In this document: positions 33,388 to 45,557 of the stretch, one piece after another
Layout: each line of letters opens with the position of its first letter
Position numbering within the stretch: position 1 is the stretch's first letter
NCBI GenBank assembly: GCA_030568195.1
Contig: JAJLTO010000007.1
Coordinates: forward strand, 496,001-560,000
Source: Dipodascopsis uninucleata var. uninucleata
Taxonomy: Eukaryota; Ascomycota; Lipomycetes; Lipomycetales; Lipomycetaceae
Reading direction: 5' to 3'
Length of the DNA: 64,000 bases
The notes under the pieces: model-generated
Database searches by the model: none
Told to the model about the DNA's origin: nothing
The model's input: only the letters and a program-made list of their open reading frames with translations
Position numbers and translations under genes: made by a program

Positions 33388-36300
33388 CTAAATCTTCATT
33401 GTCGGAGGCGGCGTAACCTTGCGCATGATTAATTCGGATGGCCTCGAGGAGGCATACTTTTCTGCCATCGCCTCAACAAATCTTTTTCTGGAGACTATCT
33501 CGTCAATTAGGTCAACATCAACATGGACTTTCATGACTGTAGAGGATGCCGGAGGCGTTGCAAAGTTTCCTCCACCGCTCATATCAATTCCAGCTGGCGA
33601 TGATGACAAAATAGTGCTATTGTCCAAAAGTGACGACTTGTTATAGGAACGACGAGGAAGATGACCAATGCTGTTTCTATCTGGTGTTACATATGGTGAC
33701 GGTGTTCTCACTGAAGATAATGGCGAAGACATGGCTGCTTTCATATTTGAGCCTGAAGAGAGTGTATGACCGACAGGAGAGTGCCCTGGATATGTGGATG
33801 GTGAGTTCATTCTCAAAGCGCTGAATTGCCGTTCAAGTTCAACTACGTCTGATGCCCTTTTATTCGCAAACTTCATGATCCGTTGAATAGACTTCTCAAT
33901 TCCCACTATCGATGGCTGCTGAGTTGAGCCTGGTCTGGAAAGAGAGCTCAGTGCCATCTTTATTTCAGTGTTAGTCTTTTCAAGAGACTCCAAGAATTTA
34001 GTTACATCATGTAATTTCTTTCGCACATCTTTCTGAAGATCTTGAGCTTCTGCCGGAAGTACCTTACTCTGCGCCTTGGTAAGATTCTGAATACCACTAT
34101 GGCGTCTCATCATACTTCTCATTCTTGAGAGAGCGATCTCCAATCGAGTTAAAGACGTCTCAATCTCGTGAGATTGATTATCGGCTCGAGCACCTTTCAC
34201 GTTCAATCCTTTTACTCTCTCCTCTAATTGCTTCATGAGATTGGCCAAATTGGAAGACTCTCCAAGCTTCCATAACTCTGGAGAGCTTATATCATCGTAT
34301 TTCTCTGACGGGTCTATTCTTTGACTTGAAATAAACGCTTTAAGAGATGACACATTTTTACTAATTATATCAAGACTGTCAACAGTCTCGTCGTAGATAA
34401 AACCAAGGACTTCTTCGGGTCCTCGACCCTCACCTTTCGACTTGTGCAGCTCAAAATAATTAGGCATGTCAATAACCTTTCGCTTGGTAGACTGTACTAG
34501 ATGCTTTGGCGTCGCCTCCTGTATTATCGAAACATCATGTTGTGAATTCGGTTCTACAACAGGTGTCGCTTGCATGCTAGATGGCACCGAACCACTTTCT
34601 ATAGTTGACTTTGATGATGATGATGACTGAATCAGTGGCTTCTGTTGTGGCTTCGAACCCAAACTTTCTGACACAGCGGAAAGAATAGAAGGCTTACCAA
34701 ATCCCTTGAACTGTGGTTGCCCGAATAGTGATTGCTTTTCAGCCTCCCCTGTAGAAGTAGAACCATAAACAATAGGATTTGTCTCTTGCTTAGAAGGAGA
34801 TTGAAGTTGAGAAGACACACTAGAACCAAAAGAAAAGGCGGGTTTGGCCTCTTGCTTGACTTGATTAGAACTAAATGATCCAAATGAACCCCGCGTAACT
34901 GAAGTCTTCTGGATTTGCTTCAAATTTGACGTTTTTATTTTATCCTCTTGCTTATTAGTAGCGATTGTGCCAGAGTTTTTGCCTTTTGTATCACCTGTGT
35001 TTCCTCGGATAATTATAGAATCACCTAAAGCACTTAGATCAAACGGTTTTCGTAGAACCTTTTCTTCTCGAATTTTAAGAGGTACACTTGGCTTGACGTC
35101 ATCTCCCGATTCCTCAGAGTCCGATTCAGCTGGTCCTCTTTTTTCTTCTTCAACAACATCATCATCATCACCATCATCACCATCATCGTAGTCGTCATAA
35201 TCATATTCATCTTCATCTTCAAGGACTTCGTTCACGTCCTCCTCAACCTCCTCATTTTCATAGTCCTCATAATCTGAGTCAATATCCGATTCCATTTCTT
35301 CTTCATCTTCCTCAGAATCGCTAGTCTCCTTTCTCGGAGTTATACCGACTCTGGAAGCAAAAGACTGGCCTGCGTTTGACATGAGAGAATTCGAGCTCTC
35401 GTCATTAACCATAGTCTTACTAAATACACTCCCTTGCTCAGATTTATCAAATCTCATTTTACGTTGTGGTTCACCACTTTTTTTACTTCCAAATATACCA
35501 AATGATGGTTTATTAGACTCAACTGCATCAACAGTCGACGTATCGGCCAGCGAAGCATTTTTCAAAATAGAACCGTTAAACGCTCCAAACGATGACGAGC
35601 TTTTATCGGAATCCTTTGCAAGCACTCCAAATGGCGACTGGCCGTTCTTATCAGAATCCTTTGCAAACGCTCCAAATGGCGACTGACCATTCTTATCAGA
35701 ATCCTTTGCAAGCGCTCCAAATGGCGACTGACCATTCTTATCAGAATCCTTTGCAAACGCTCCAAATGGCGACTGACCATTCTTATCAGAATCCTTTGCA
35801 AACGCTCCAAATGGCGACTGACCATTCTTATCAGAATCCTTTGCAAGCGCTCCAAATGGCGACTGACCATTCTTATCAGAATCCTTTGCAAGCGCTCCAA
35901 ATGGCGACTGACTATCCTTATCAGAATCCTTTGCAAACGCTCCAAATGGCGACTGGCCGTTCTTATCAGAATCCTTTGCAAACGCTCCAAATGGCGACTT
36001 GCCGTTCTTATCAGAATCCTTTGCAAATGCTCCAAATGGCGACTGGCCGTTCGTGTCGGTAGCCTTTGCAAACGCTCCAAATGGCGACTGGCCGTTCTGG
36101 TCGGTATCCTTTGCAAACGCTCCAAATGGCGACTGGCCGTTCTGGTCGGTATCCTTTGCAAACGCTCCAAATGGCGACTGACTATTCTTGTGGGAACCTT
36201 TTGCAAACGCTCCAAATGAAGATTCTGGATTCTTATTGCTACCAAAGGTACTGAATGTAGACTCTTTTGAGTACGATTCTAAAGGTTTGTTACCAGTAGC

Positions 36301-39300
36301 AGATCCAAACGACGGTAAAGTATTTGGCTGCTTGGAATTAAAACCTAATGAGCCAGACTTTGAGCTTGATGTAATTGTTGAAGATGAAAATAGAGACGAT
36401 TGTGCTTTCGAATCTTTTGAAGCCAACGAAGCAAATGGACTTGAAGATGGTGATGAAAGCGAGCCAAATGGTGAGGTCGTAGACGAAGCGTAACTAGAAA
36501 ATCCTCCAAATGCAGGTGCTTTAGAAGCACCTGCTACAGTAGTCCCAAATGTACTTTTGCCAAATTCAATCTGCGTTGCACTAAATTGAGACGGCGTATG
36601 CTTTGAGGAAGGGAATGACGTGCTTATTGGTTCAGGAAGTTTAGTGATTTCAGGTGCATTTTCTGCTTTTGCTACATTAGGAACACTCTCCGGTTCTGGA
36701 CTAGATCTGATAGCCGATGTGGATGAAATGCCCTTAGTATTTACCCCGGAAGTAAGAATACGTCTCTCATACTGATTCAACAACACCTTAGCCTCTGTCT
36801 CCCCATTTTCTACTCCATCGGACCATATGAGATTCCATACTTTTATCTGACCTTGATCGTTGAGAAGCCATACCATTGGCACTGGACCACATCTATCAAT
36901 ACCAGGTTTGGGACTCAGGACATCTTCATCACCTGATAGATCGAGAGCAAGTCCAGCAGGCAATGAATCCTTACCATTCGGTAACATAGGCATGCTTGCC
37001 CGTTTAGTTTCATCTAATATATCAAAAGAATGCGAGCTCGTTAATACAGATATATCGGGTGATTGAGTTGATGCCACTATTGCAAGATTTCGCAGCTGTG
37101 ATATCCACTTGGTAAGCACTAATGAATACCAGTATGGCTTCTTGGTACTTTCAAACGATGGACAAATATCAAAAGACCTTGCGAAAGTAATCTTTGTATT
37201 CTCGACATCAATCACATATACTTCATTTTCGTCCATGCCAGCAGCAGATACAAATAGAGTGTTTTCATCAAGTGAGCATATAAAAAATACTATCAAGTCA
37301 GTTAAATATATAATTGCAACTTAAAAAATTTCTGACTTACTCTCTTTCGTAAAGCATTGAAAACTGGATTTCATATTTCCTTGCAATGTCCAAGTACATA
37401 TAGCACCACCCTTTGACCCAGTTATTAATTCACTGTTTTCAACAGACCAGTCAAAGCAGGTCACACCATCAGTAATTTTGGCCCTATTACCATTTGAAAT
37501 ATCAATGTGCCATAGGGTACCTTCCATGCTTAATACTACTAGAGATGACCCATCTGCAGCATTGCATTTAAAATCACTGATGGTTGTTTTTGAGTCAATT
37601 ACTTTCGGCGGCTTTATAGTATCTTCAAGAAGATTTTCGACAGGATATACCATAATTTCACCTTCTGCAGTAATCACTATAAAAAACTGCTCATCGGATG
37701 TGAATGTTATAGCTTTTATGTTCTTCTGAAGAGGATATTTTCTGCCCTCGCGAAAAATTTTATCTGTACTATAAAACTTTGATCTTAATTCCGCTGTCTT
37801 TGAGACAATGAATCCTACAATACGGCTGTAAATTCTCTTTCTCAAAAACATTTATCGCTAATATAGATGTCACTTACCATTTTTATAAACAACAGCAAAA
37901 ATTTTGTTATGGTTGCCAATGGACAAATGATTAACTGGATAATCAATATTGGTAGCAGGTTCATCGATACATATAATAGCATTTTTTCCTAGAGCGACAA
38001 ATCCGAGAGATTCAGTTTCTTCAAGTGCAAATTCGCCAGAGACAATCTCTCTATTGCTGTCGTTAGCGCCAGAACTAGATTTCAGTCGAGGAGTTTCTTG
38101 CGACTCGCTATCCTTGCTGGAAACTATTTCAGTACTGTTAGATGACTTAATCTCAATGAAGGAGGATTTGGCTGCCAAAACTGTTTTGTTATGTTCCTCT
38201 AGAAGCGTAGAAGCGATGCTGTCAGTTAGGTCATCCATCTGCATGACATGCCATATCTTCAGCTGGCCCTTTCCACTCAAACACCACAGCAATGGCAGTG
38301 CAGGACACTCATCTACGCCAGGCTTCGGTGCTCTTAAGGACTTTGAAGAAGTGAGATCTATTGCTAAAGCTGTAGGCGAAGTCTCAGAGCCTTTGAACAT
38401 AGGCAAGCTTGCCCGACGAGTCTCATCCAATAAGTATAGAGTATGTTGTTCCGTCATAACTGATATATCTGTAGATAAACTGGAACCCAAAATAATTAAA
38501 TATGGCAGAGAAGATTTCCAATGTCTTATGATAGTTGAATACCACCAGCATAATTGTGAATTCGAACTAGAAGGCATACAAATGTCATATATTTTTGAAA
38601 AGATGATCTCATTTGACTCATCTTGGACGCGAACCAGGAATGGCTCACATTCATTGGTCGTTGATGAGGGCGAGGTTGAATAAATGATCAAATATAAGTT
38701 TTGGTCGATACAAGACAAATATAATACTGCCCAAATTTGTACAATATAAACATATTAGCATCAGAAATTTCACGCAAAACACCGTAAAATACAAATATTA
38801 TTGTCACATACCATGGCTCTTCTGAACCGCTGAGGAACGCTCAATGACCAAGACACATTCGCTGGACGTCGAAATTACTTTGACTTCACCTGTGGCCTCA
38901 CCCACTAAATAAGAATTTCCATCTAAAAGCCATTCAACTATGTTTAAAATAGACATTAGATTATGATTCATTATATCCATGCTAGTTGTATACATACAGG
39001 CTGTGATCCCACTTCTGTGTAAAATAGACGTAGAATTGGTTTTAATGTCGAGATGAGTTAGACTTCCGTCCTGAGCCAATATTGCTACTGAATTTCCGTG
39101 TGCAGGATTCGGTCTCAAGTCGCTGATTGCCTTTCCAAGTATAAAAGAATACAAAGGCGTACTTGATGATACTTTCATTGAATCAATATCATAAACATAT
39201 ACAGCGCCCTTCGCTATATTTGCAGCCAATAGTAGCTGCTCGTCTGCACTAAACATAATCATGTCTACCGCATGGGGACACCGGTTCATGATGCCCCCGT

Positions 39301-39684
39301 CACCAGTATTGTACATCTTATCATCACCCTCAAATTTTTTCCGTATTGACGCAGTAGAATCCACGATAAATCCATTTTCGATTACTATTGCCACTACACC
39401 CTTACTGTTAGCTATAGCAAGCTGTCTCGCACGAGTATCAGGATCTTTGACGGCATTTTCAATGTTTACTGTCGAGTCTTTTCCAAGAGCAAGAAAGCCG
39501 AAGTCCTAGTAAGTAACAAACATAATAATATTAGTTATTAAATATCTATGTCTAAATTCTGGACCCGTTCCTACACTGATTCCGCTTCAGTGCCCTGATT
39601 CAAGTATTGAAATATTCCTTCAGTACATACCTCGGTCTCTACTTCCGCCAACTCATCGTCCACTACTTTGTGAGCAGGTTTCAT
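33388..39684 (-). CDS. NUP159: Nup159/Nup146-type nucleoporin with two tandem N-terminal beta-propellers (five exons)
   Basis: Nup159 (animal Nup214) sits on the cytoplasmic face of the nuclear pore and recruits the mRNA-export helicase Dbp5 through its N-terminal propeller. Exons are 39631-39684, 38812-39505, 37878-38726, 37341-37814 and 33388-37289. The four introns (51 to 125 nt) have GTATGT or GTAAGT donors and TAG/CAG acceptors, and all phases agree, giving 1990 residues. The start MKPAHKVVDDELAEVETEDF is typical. Propeller A spans about 19-440 and propeller B about 478-865. Both open with GF(L/V)ALGK, carry NGFIV, and close with DET(R/K)RAS(L/M)PM, PKPG(V/I)D and GQ(L/I)KVW/KIW. Next come FG repeats, including a 45-bp array, an acidic stretch (EEDEEEMESDIDSDYEDY) and a C-terminal coiled-coil region (LMKQLEERVKGL). 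A doubled propeller is not usual for the family. Confidence 0.92.
35594..36223 (-). repeat. 45-bp coding minisatellite, about 14 units of FG repeat
   Basis: Each 45-bp unit encodes 15 residues of the form SPFGAFAKDSDKNGQ. Thirteen SPFG units and one flanking SSFG unit stand in a row. Units at the gene-proximal and distal ends differ (DTDQNGQ, ATDTNGQ, KGSHKNSQ) while central ones are nearly identical, a sign of recent homogenisation. One FG per 15 residues provides spaced karyopherin contacts. The regular period keeps other frames open on both strands; those frames are artefacts. Confidence 0.93.
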
Positions 39685-41043: not shown

Positions 41044-43614
41044 TCATGACGACGTTGTGAAACGTGGAGCAGCACGCCATAATTCACTTTTCCAAGACTC
41101 AAGCTTGCTATGAAGACTCAAGAGCTGTTCACGCCGTCTATGATATGCAACCTCATGCTTGGGATTGAGAGACTTTTGAGTCTCATATTGACGTACTTCT
41201 GCATATAACTTTCTGTATTCTTCATACTGCTCTCTAAATCTCCGAGCTAATCGTAGAAGATCGGCCTGATTGAGTTGAGATGCAGAAGTCTTCTTACCGT
41301 TATTATTGCTACCATTGCTATTTTTATAATCGTCTTCTTTACGATCGTGGTCATGGCCATGATCATGACTAAGATCAGTTGCATTAACCGGAGGACTAGC
41401 ACCAAGTGGCGAGGGCTTGCGTGGTGACATCGATCCACCTCCTGATGAAGATCTCACTCTAGAAGATCCTGTAGAGGAAGATGTTCCTGAGTTCGTGAGA
41501 CTAGTAGCCTTTCGCTTCGTGCCATTAGCATTATCTGTACCAGACGACTGTGTCGTTTGATCAGGTCGCCGGACCTTTTTAATTTTAACTGAATTATCTT
41601 TCTTAAGTGCTGATTGAGCTCCTTCGGATGTGCTCGCAGAGCCAGCTGAAATGCTACTTTGTTTTCTATGATTAGCATTAATAGAAGACGAAGCCGACGC
41701 AGATCCACCATTGGAAACACCAGTAACGCGAGAGTTAGATATGTTCCTTACGCCATCTGCTTCTTTTTTCTCTTTTTTCTCCCTTGGATCTTTTGACTCT
41801 TTTGACTCTTTTGACTCCAATTTTTGTCTCTTCAAAGGCTTTGTTTTTAATATCGCACCACCAACTCTTTTAACACCAGAAATCGAGGTTGATGAATGGC
41901 CATTCGTATTTGCTGTGTCAGGCGTTTCAGCTACTACAGGAGGTGCAGCAACTGGTAATGGACCATCGTCTAGTCGAAGTGCTGGAACTGAGTTTTCACT
42001 AGTGTTGGAACTTGTGGTGGACGAATCATCTGAGACAGAGCTGACAGACGAACTGCTGCTTGCTATACTTGAAGTGCTTGCATTACTCGAGACACTAGAA
42101 GTGCTAGCGACACTTGAAGTCCGCAGACGAGGTTCAATAAGCATTTTCCAAGCCATATCGTCTTTAGGTAGAGCAAGTCGTTCAAAAGCCTTTGACGCAT
42201 CTTCAATTATCTTATCTCGCTGACCAGCAGTGTAACCTTTCCATTCCCAGATACGGAGCTCTTTATATGCAAGGTCGGTCAAGATAAAAGCCTGTGGATC
42301 CGATGGTGCTGGCTGAGCATATTCTGTTAATAAGCTGCGGACTTCGTCTATATTGGCTTTGGTACGACCGGCCAGGCGATCTATTCTTGCTGGCTGCTCT
42401 ACAGCCAACAAATGAATAAGACGCATTGTTAGCGAACGGAACGTGTTCGTAGGCTTCGGCGAAGACGGTGCCAAAGCTCTATTTTTTCCTACGTGAACCC
42501 CAGACAAGAGAGGTGACGACGGCACAAGACGAGGAGAAGGTGTAGACAGTAGAGTAGTCCGACTATAGTTACAATACGAAGTTAGTTGGAGAAAACTGAC
42601 TATGATCCATACTACAATGAAAACTTTGAGATTTTAAATCTGAGATAATGCAAAGAATGACGAGGAAGCAAATAGATCAAAATACCTGATAGGATCCTTA
42701 CTGGCCACATCCTGTGCCTGACGTCTAGGACTGATCTCATGATTGTCCACCGTTAAAACATGGGACACCCGACCCACACAATCAAGGGCGCGCGGGAACT
42801 GCCCAGAGGAGATCGAGCGACGAGAAATTGTTGATGTCGCTCCATACACAAAATAAGGAGAAGGCTGTTCTACTGCAGATAACGGATAAGAACTTGATGA
42901 CCCAATTTTGATTGACTAAGTCCAGTTAGTTAGCACACAATACAAGATATTTAGTCATAGAATGAAAAGGTAAATTAACCACGTAGGTAGTCAAAGAATG
43001 TAACAACAGAAATATTAGACTCTTTTTCTTTTGATAAAGAAAACGTGAATAAAAAAGAATATTAATGCTTAGAATATACGATGGACGAAGAAAATTCATG
43101 ACCGACAATACTATCCCCACCACCGCCAAATCGACGCCTATTTCCGAGGAAGGGGAGAACGACAGCGAAGAAAATCGAGCATTCCCTCAACGTCTTTAAT
43201 TCCGAAACACTTAAAACACAAAACACGATTGTCAAAATGCAACGGTAATTGCAAATCCTTAACAACAGAAACGACATAATAGATATAATAGTAATAATAA
43301 AAGTAAAATAACCATAGCCGGAGCGTAATGATATGTTCACAGATAGTCTTCGACTATCTTTCTCAACAAACAGATAAATCACTTACAGGGACCTTGCCTA
43401 GTACTAGCTTCAATGAAGACGGATCTCTCTTCGCGCATTCTACTAACTGTGCATACGAATCTTCCGTAAATCGGACATGAAACACCTGCGGAGGCCTTCC
43501 ACTAGTGCTATTGGCACCACCGATTGAATGTGTGGAGTTGACCGACGATGGACCAAGCTTGATGCCTGTAGCGAGCTGTGGAGAAGTAGCGAGCGACAAG
43601 ATCGATGAAGACAT
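41044..43614 (-). CDS. ELL1: ELL-type RNA polymerase II elongation factor (three exons)
   Basis: ELL stimulates Pol II elongation in the nucleus, usually with an EAF partner, and is absent from S. cerevisiae but present in fission yeast. Exons are 43387-43614, 42686-42915 and 41044-42562, giving 658 residues. Intron 1 is 471 nt (GTAAGT ... TTAG) and intron 2 is 123 nt (GTATTT donor, AACTAAC branch). The N-terminal ELL domain runs across all exons: VFHVRFTEDSYAQLVECAKR (about 43-62), LDCVGRVSHVLTVDN, then the winged-helix-like FRSLTMRLIHLLAVEQPARI. A long Ser-rich linker with a Lys block (KESKESKDPREKKEKKE) follows. The last about 80 residues (LARRFREQYEEYRKLYAEVR) resemble the occludin/ELL helical domain. 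The start at 43614 gives a Ser-rich leader before the domain. Domain order fits ELL fully. Confidence 0.89.
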
Positions 43615-45557
43615 TACGTCTCTGCGTCTATGGAGGAATTATCCAGCTTACTAAACGTATGAAAGAGAGCCACCAGTAGCGACACCAGCACAGAGTGATT
43701 CAAAACAGTGACCTGACGTAGTTTGGATAGACACCAACTGAAGTTAGCAAGAAACAGGTAAGTCGCACGCAAAGATAATAATTGGTGACAGACAGACAAC
43801 TGCTTTTAACTGCACAAAATGACAAAGAAAGAATAAAAAAGTTGAGTGTTGTGAATATGAGTGAGCGTGTATGAAAGTGCGCGAGAATGGAAAGTAAGAG
43901 GGAAAGGAAAGGCTAAAAAGCGAAAGAGGTTAAGGCTTAGAAGGCTGGCAAACTAAACGAAGAGGATGTATATGCAATGGAGAGGTCGACAACAGCGAAC
44001 TCCTCTGGCCAGGTCTATCCAGCTATTTAAAATAATAAATAAATAAAAAAGGATACTACAACTCCTTCTCTTTGTAAGATTAATGATGGCAAATATAATA
44101 TATAAATGTAGTAGTTATTACAATATCTGTAGTATTGGTATTATTTCTGCTCCTTCTACTATAACATCGCCCGCTGTGAGTACCATCTGACTTTACTCAT
44201 ACTCTCCTGCTTAACATCTAGCTACGCCACATTTACTTACAATATTCCAAACACCACTGTTATGATTATTACAATGGTTTTAAGAGAATTGATTTCTAGT
44301 CACAGCTACTCCAATAATAGGCATGTGTTGTGCTCTTCTGCAGTTTGCTTTCTGAATGAATATATGGCCATACAGCAAGACACTGGGTCGATTAAATAAA
44401 GTATCTACGTAACTTTACAGCGAACAGAACTTACCCAAGATAGCGAGTCTAAATCACCCGCTTTAAATTTCTCAGGTGTATAAAACTATTAATACAAATG
44501 CGCCATAACCACTGGATAAGTTAAGTGTCAAGCAATAGGTTTCCACGGAGCTCCTCGTGGTAACAGAACTACACAAGTGAGCTAAGAATCCTCAGAAACT
44601 GTTTCCATACCAAATATTTAGCTCTACGTTGCCTATAGCAGTGAGAGTAATGTAAACAATGTAAAAGTGAGATGACGTGAAATTAAAGAGCGAGACGGAG
44701 TATTAGGAGGGTGCCATTAAAAGGTAAAACGAATATAAAGGCAACGCGACTCTAAATGACAGGCTTAGCTCAACGACTATGAACAAGGTTTGCTATGTGG
44801 TACATGGGTCACGTTGGTTCCAAACGACAGAAACTGGCAGAAACTGGCCATATAGAGACAGTAGATAAAATAACAGCGTTGGTCGGCAATGAGTTATTTA
44901 CTTTTTCAGCTTACTTGCTATTTATTTTATCTTGGTCCAACTCTTTTTCTTTTTAGTTGTCTACATATCATGTAAGACCCTAGCTCATCTTCAGGTAGCA
45001 TGTGGAGCATCAGAGAGCATACAAGAAACAGTTTTAGAGCCGAGAATTAATATGATTTATGAAAGATGTTCCTGGTTAGATAGTTTGGTCCACAGAATGT
45101 AGCGAGCAGAAGTTACAAGTAAAATCTGGACCATCACACCAGAATTGCCTCTTGTCTATTGGCTACTATGATCATCGTTGTTCATTGCGTACGATTTGCC
45201 GTAGAAAGATGTACTGATCATAGAAAACTGGATAATATAAACTGGGTACTGCAAATGCGGAAAAGGAGATGTTTGATGCCCTAAACTACGGCTCGCCTGA
45301 AACTCTTCAGAGCGGAAGCAGTACTGAGATACTACTAGCGCTGTCACTCATAACCGCTACTCAGCCTGCCATGTCATCCTAAACCTGCTTCGGCTTTCTT
45401 GTTCGACAGTGGTATTCCGTGTGTATGAGTAGTTAGTGCCTGAGAGAGCCAGGATCTACGCGATCTAAAACCATAGGTCACATTTGATATTATTTATCAT
45501 GTCTCCCTGTAGTGTGTATATCACATACGTATCCAGACCATAAGCCTGCCGTTCGAG

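Follow-up and report, generated by a model that had tools for sequence, protein, structure and literature searches.

Two Nup159-type beta-propellers in tandem in a single annotated protein of Dipodascopsis uninucleata

We found that Dipodascopsis uninucleata var. uninucleata has an annotated single protein in which two complete, constrained Nup159-type propellers stand in tandem, with a short Ser-rich linker between them. The gene lies in the window, that is, the whole stretch of 64,000 nucleotides that was analysed (contig JAJLTO010000007.1, positions 496,001 to 560,000). Two traits of the Nup159/Nup214 family are present, namely an N-terminal beta-propeller of the Nup159/Nup214 type and, after it, an FG-repeat region, and the protein is a member of this family with a changed head, carrying two propellers where the relatives examined have one. 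In yeast and human, it is the head of Nup159/Nup214 that positions the helicase Dbp5/DDX19 on the cytoplasmic face of the pore, where mRNA export takes its final, directional step. Tandem heads could double or split this step. The finding means that this part of the pore, which carries one head in all the relatives that were scanned, is able to change within a lineage of yeasts, and a natural two-headed protein offers a direct way to ask if docking sites are a limiting factor and if a propeller can change its ligand.

Gene model and agreement with the public record

Joining of exons at splice sites gave a minus-strand gene running from 39684 to 33388, with six exons and five introns, encoding 1970 amino acids. 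Its parts, in the order of translation, were as follows.

39631..39684, minus strand: exon 1 (aa 1-18; ATG at 39684, GTATGT donor; identical in P0001)
38998..39505, minus strand: exon 2 (propeller A)
38938..38997, minus strand: 60-nt in-frame intron without a stop (GTATGT...ACATAG), spliced out of the public protein P0001
38812..38937, minus strand: exon 3 (propeller A)
38727..38811, minus strand: phase-1 intron in A, its alignment column matching that of the B intron 37340-37290
37878..38726, minus strand: exon 4, a single open frame with late propeller A, linker and start of propeller B
37341..37814, minus strand: exon 5 (propeller B)
37290..37340, minus strand: phase-1 intron in B, its position matching that of the A intron 38811-38727
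33388..37289, minus strand: exon 6 (end of propeller B, FG region, acidic tract, C-terminal region, stop)

The preliminary description had proposed five exons. That join is also an open frame (1990 aa), and to this extent the proposal stood; the exon count was one short, the 60-nt intron at 38997-38938 having been missed. Excision of this intron sets ITAFEW of copy A opposite VTCFDW of copy B in the alignment. Just past propeller A, there are Met codons in frame at aa 391 and 393 (38244-38236), from which a B-only product could arise by internal start. Upstream on the same strand, the open frames 41083-42633 and 43363-43635 had no Pfam match and are perhaps exons of one gene.

Both propeller copies were found in a single public protein, P0001 ('hypothetical protein V1511DRAFT_503065 [Dipodascopsis uninucleata]', 1865 aa), with 100% identity over query 1-830 in the protein search. 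Its splicing is that of the six-exon model, and in full alignment the two were equal except for 105 aa fewer in P0001 within the FG array, which is the length of seven 15-aa units. The shorter array was not explained by one or two GT-AG introns (in the two-intron search, introns of at least 30 nt). Therefore the size difference is likely strain variation or assembly collapse. The contig of the public protein measures 748,027 b and that of the window 749,712 b, and the tandem propellers are thus present in two versions of the assembly. Misassembly was ruled out, as the copies are 31% identical and the same tandem stands on a public contig of other size. The genome paper states that poly-A RNA was sequenced with a common protocol for every lineage except M. 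melibiosi, which had a protocol of its own, and that all genomes were annotated with the JGI pipeline (PMC11024372).

The two propellers and their origin

The domains of the protein and the repeat array were placed as follows.

38239..39684, minus strand: propeller A (aa 1-392, introns included)
38041..38238, minus strand: linker of 66 aa (aa 393-458), with the post-propeller helix of A (aa 400-415) and then a Ser-rich stretch
36823..38040, minus strand: propeller B (aa 459-826, introns included)
35578..36218, minus strand: FG repeat array, 14.3 copies of a 45-bp unit (15 aa, SPFGAFAKDSDKNGQ-like), detected by TRF
33391..34500, minus strand: C-terminal region (aa 1601-1970), resembling the C-termini of single-propeller Nup159 relatives

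Copies A and B aligned in BLASTP with 31% identity over 382 columns (E 4e-71), a value that ruled out chance similarity. When both were searched against the family profile, a check put forward in the preliminary description, each matched PF16755 (profile positions 1-366 for A and 6-365 for B). Compared by sequence with solved structures, A matched across the whole domain and B best in the last third. Predicted models of the two copies matched Nup214/Nup159 entries far above other propellers over the whole domain, with some low-confidence stretches in the model of B; the helix at aa 400-415 was also seen in the predicted structure. Pfam, sequence matches to solved structures and the predicted fold thus all agree with the original claim that the Nup159/Nup214 propeller occurs twice, and every pair of landmark motifs quoted for the two copies was found. 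On its own, each half is predicted to form a complete, closed propeller, so the alternative of a single propeller made of two halves fails. The copies differ in their loops: the YSKPPAP-type loop that the relatives have is missing from B, and the CPPFG stretch is altered in A.

Behind the propellers, 27 of the 28 FG dipeptides of the protein fall after aa 830. The C-terminal region matched 13 of 14 relatives in BLASTP, from E 7e-33 (P0004) to 4e-4 (P0012), with no match in P0011. A simple pattern search detected no TQT-type dynein light-chain motifs. Between the FG array and the C-terminal region lies a long tract of acidic residues (D/E), partly encoded by a triplet repeat at 35157-35221; by eye, Lipomyces orthologues have similar tracts.

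We analyzed the conservation of each copy at 104 sites that are invariant in eight single-propeller proteins of Lipomycetaceae. Copy A keeps 69 of them and copy B 57; 43 are kept by both, 21 by neither, 26 by A only and 14 by B only. At 60 sites conserved in at least 90% of these eight proteins and four others, the counts were 45 for A and 37 for B. In leave-one-out controls, Limtongia keeps 103 of the 139 sites invariant in the other seven (A 85, B 75), and L. oligophaga 104 of 149 (A 84, B 72). Of the 27 invariant sites that fall in the last stretch (A aa 331-400), 17 are found in A and 18 in B. Judged from these alignments, both copies are under constraint, and both, B more, have diverged further than single-headed orthologues. 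Neither copy looks decayed, since A retains 69 and B 57 of the 104 sites.

Twelve proteins were scanned whole with Pfam. There were two PF16755 stretches in P0001 and one in each of the 11 others, which include eight of Lipomycetaceae and one of Purpureocillium; a second propeller was thus seen in none of these 11. Proteins P0003, P0010 and P0011 lay outside the whole-protein scan, and P0003 gave one match region per query in BLASTP. The public models of P0010 (Lipomyces starkeyi) and P0011 (L. mesembrius) begin inside the last part of the propeller and are probably N-terminally truncated. Dipodascopsis tothii (now Neoaidaea tothii), the most obvious sister species, was absent from the matches of protein searches by shared exact words, some of which scored the best-sharing candidates only.

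Because the other scanned proteins have one PF16755 stretch each, parsimony places the duplication in the Dipodascopsis lineage. What was duplicated is the N-terminal domain as a whole, from the old start up to and including the post-propeller helix: copy B begins with EIVSGEFALEETE, which resembles L. orientalis at its true N-terminus (APEIVTVELPEEETE), and the helix is retained in A. A and B share one intron (alignment column 229, phase 1), while the remaining propeller introns are unshared, two in A only and one in B only. The common position and phase suggest that one genomic domain, already with the column-229 intron, was duplicated. We also built a tree of 14 propellers, from which P0010 and P0011 were left out as their models start late. 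The best tree paired A with B weakly (aLRT 65.5, UFBoot 56), on long and similar branches (0.98 and 0.90), and the AU test rejected none of four alternative trees (p 0.246-0.432). Since the pairing is weak and no alternative was rejected, we claim no date for the duplication; an older duplication followed by loss is possible and compatible with the tree data.

Docking of Dbp5 and the role of two heads

A search of the genome with the propeller family gave seven matches. Three were exons of the tandem gene, and four lay on other contigs (30.5, 25.2, 24.2 and 22.8 bits). The family cut-off of 29.6 was passed by two of these four (30.5; 30.2 with neighbours). Both were rejected as a second Nup159: one is a frame of a many-WD40 protein and the other has a Sof1 domain, and PF16755 was absent from the best 25 of the 44 and of the 38 families listed for these loci. 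With the two matches above the cut-off set aside in this way, the tandem gene appears to be the only Nup159 locus found in the genome. If docking works as in yeast, the task must fall to the tandem protein, since no other Nup159-type locus was found.

Dbp5 had one clear locus (C14:92962-94200), with pieces 63% and 79% identical to yeast Dbp5; the next best locus had 41%. Gle1 also had one locus in the genome. Both copies have the Arg of the DETRRASLP-type motif (R334 in A, R767 in B), as do 11 of the 12 aligned single-propeller sequences. Counting along the alignment, this Arg corresponds to R348 of human Nup214, which we take to be an interface residue. L. oligophaga (P0012), whose C-terminus is weakly similar to that of the D. 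uninucleata protein, has a single-propeller Nup159 with Gln at this place. On the side of the helicase, comparison with the yeast sequence showed that R256 is kept and that Asn stands at the R259 position.

The literature describes the yeast Nup159 propeller as holding Dbp5 at the cytoplasmic face and as needed for efficient remodelling (PMC7553267). The human propeller is described as binding the N-domain of the helicase, with a contact surface that overlaps in part with the RNA site (PMC5998080). Mutation of R256 in yeast Dbp5 is given as lethal (PMC6711706), and mutants of the R259 position were made to abolish Nup214 binding (PMC4309436). Because Dbp5 has Asn at this latter position, the interface of Dbp5 and Nup159 may have shifted. 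We consider it very likely that at least one copy docks Dbp5. That both copies do so we put a little below an even chance, and a new ligand for one of them is a tentative idea, which we would rate lower.

The explanation that we favour, and hold to be probable, is that this is the sole Nup159 found in the genome, whose N-terminal domain was duplicated in frame long ago and which has at least one head on Dbp5. Through its C-terminal region the protein would be anchored at the pore like other Nup159, with its two heads projecting on the cytoplasmic side. At least one head would hold the single Dbp5, so that Gle1 could drive ADP release and mRNP remodelling. With both heads on Dbp5, docking sites per pore would be doubled at an unchanged number of Nup159 molecules. 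The further step, a bivalent mRNA-export dock with two working heads that affects export through doubled helicase sites or by holding Dbp5 and a second factor, we regard as evenly balanced. Such a dock, if true, would be a natural experiment on the number of docked Dbp5 that a pore needs.

The heads could also divide the labour, with one propeller keeping Dbp5 and the other binding a different ligand, such as another helicase or mRNP factor, Gle1, a tether or a neighbour propeller. The long and similar branches of A and B, the split of invariant sites between them (26 against 14) and the leave-one-out controls, where both were less conserved than single-propeller orthologues, are in line with this. 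However, extra divergence by itself would follow from any duplication, the motif Arg is present in both copies, the last stretch is kept similarly in each, and there is no candidate ligand; we find this reading possible but rather doubtful. A neutral tandem copy, in which one redundant propeller serves as a folded spacer and function is unchanged, is unlikely. Drift can fix the gain of a domain and the rest of the protein looks ordinary, but both copies are intact and constrained at their low mutual identity, and a domain without a use would hardly be expected to stay whole for so long.

Very improbable, in our estimate, is that two genes or transcripts were wrongly joined, so that A ends a message of its own or B starts within exon 4. 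The in-frame M391 and M393 ahead of B make a B-only product formally possible, and B alone would be an ordinary Nup159, yet A would then have no FG body. Moreover, exon 4 passes the A-B junction without a stop and the public annotation unites the copies in one model. The earlier claim of one protein, and not two genes, is therefore supported.

Comparison with known Nup159 and Nup214 proteins

No description of a two-propeller Nup159/Nup214 was found by title or opening lines among the papers listed from the open literature (for one query, 12 of 67), outside which most subscription papers lie, and none is mentioned in passages of PMC11024372, PMC5998080, PMC7553267, PMC11855661, PMC8421043, PMC4309436, PMC6711706 and PMC4758718. 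A search of the open literature for Nup159 combined with Lipomyces returned no paper. Within these sources, nothing contradicted the earlier remark that no described nucleoporin with this layout was known.

Each copy matched Nup159 of S. cerevisiae (1XIP, 3RRM) and Nup214 of human (2OIT, 3FMP, 3FHC), and in all of them FG and C-terminal regions follow. The yeast and human proteins have one propeller, whereas D. uninucleata has two, with a 66-aa linker that retains the post-propeller helix. Closer to home, Nup159 of Lipomyces and Limtongia (P0002, P0004-P0009, P0012) has the same order of propeller, FG dipeptides and a similar C-terminal region, and is 31-38% identical to copies A and B; each of these eight proteins has one PF16755 stretch, in contrast to the two of D. 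uninucleata. Paired N-terminal propellers are known from subunits of coatomer and IFT. These belong to other families, whereas both propellers of D. uninucleata are of the Nup159 type and stand ahead of FG repeats.
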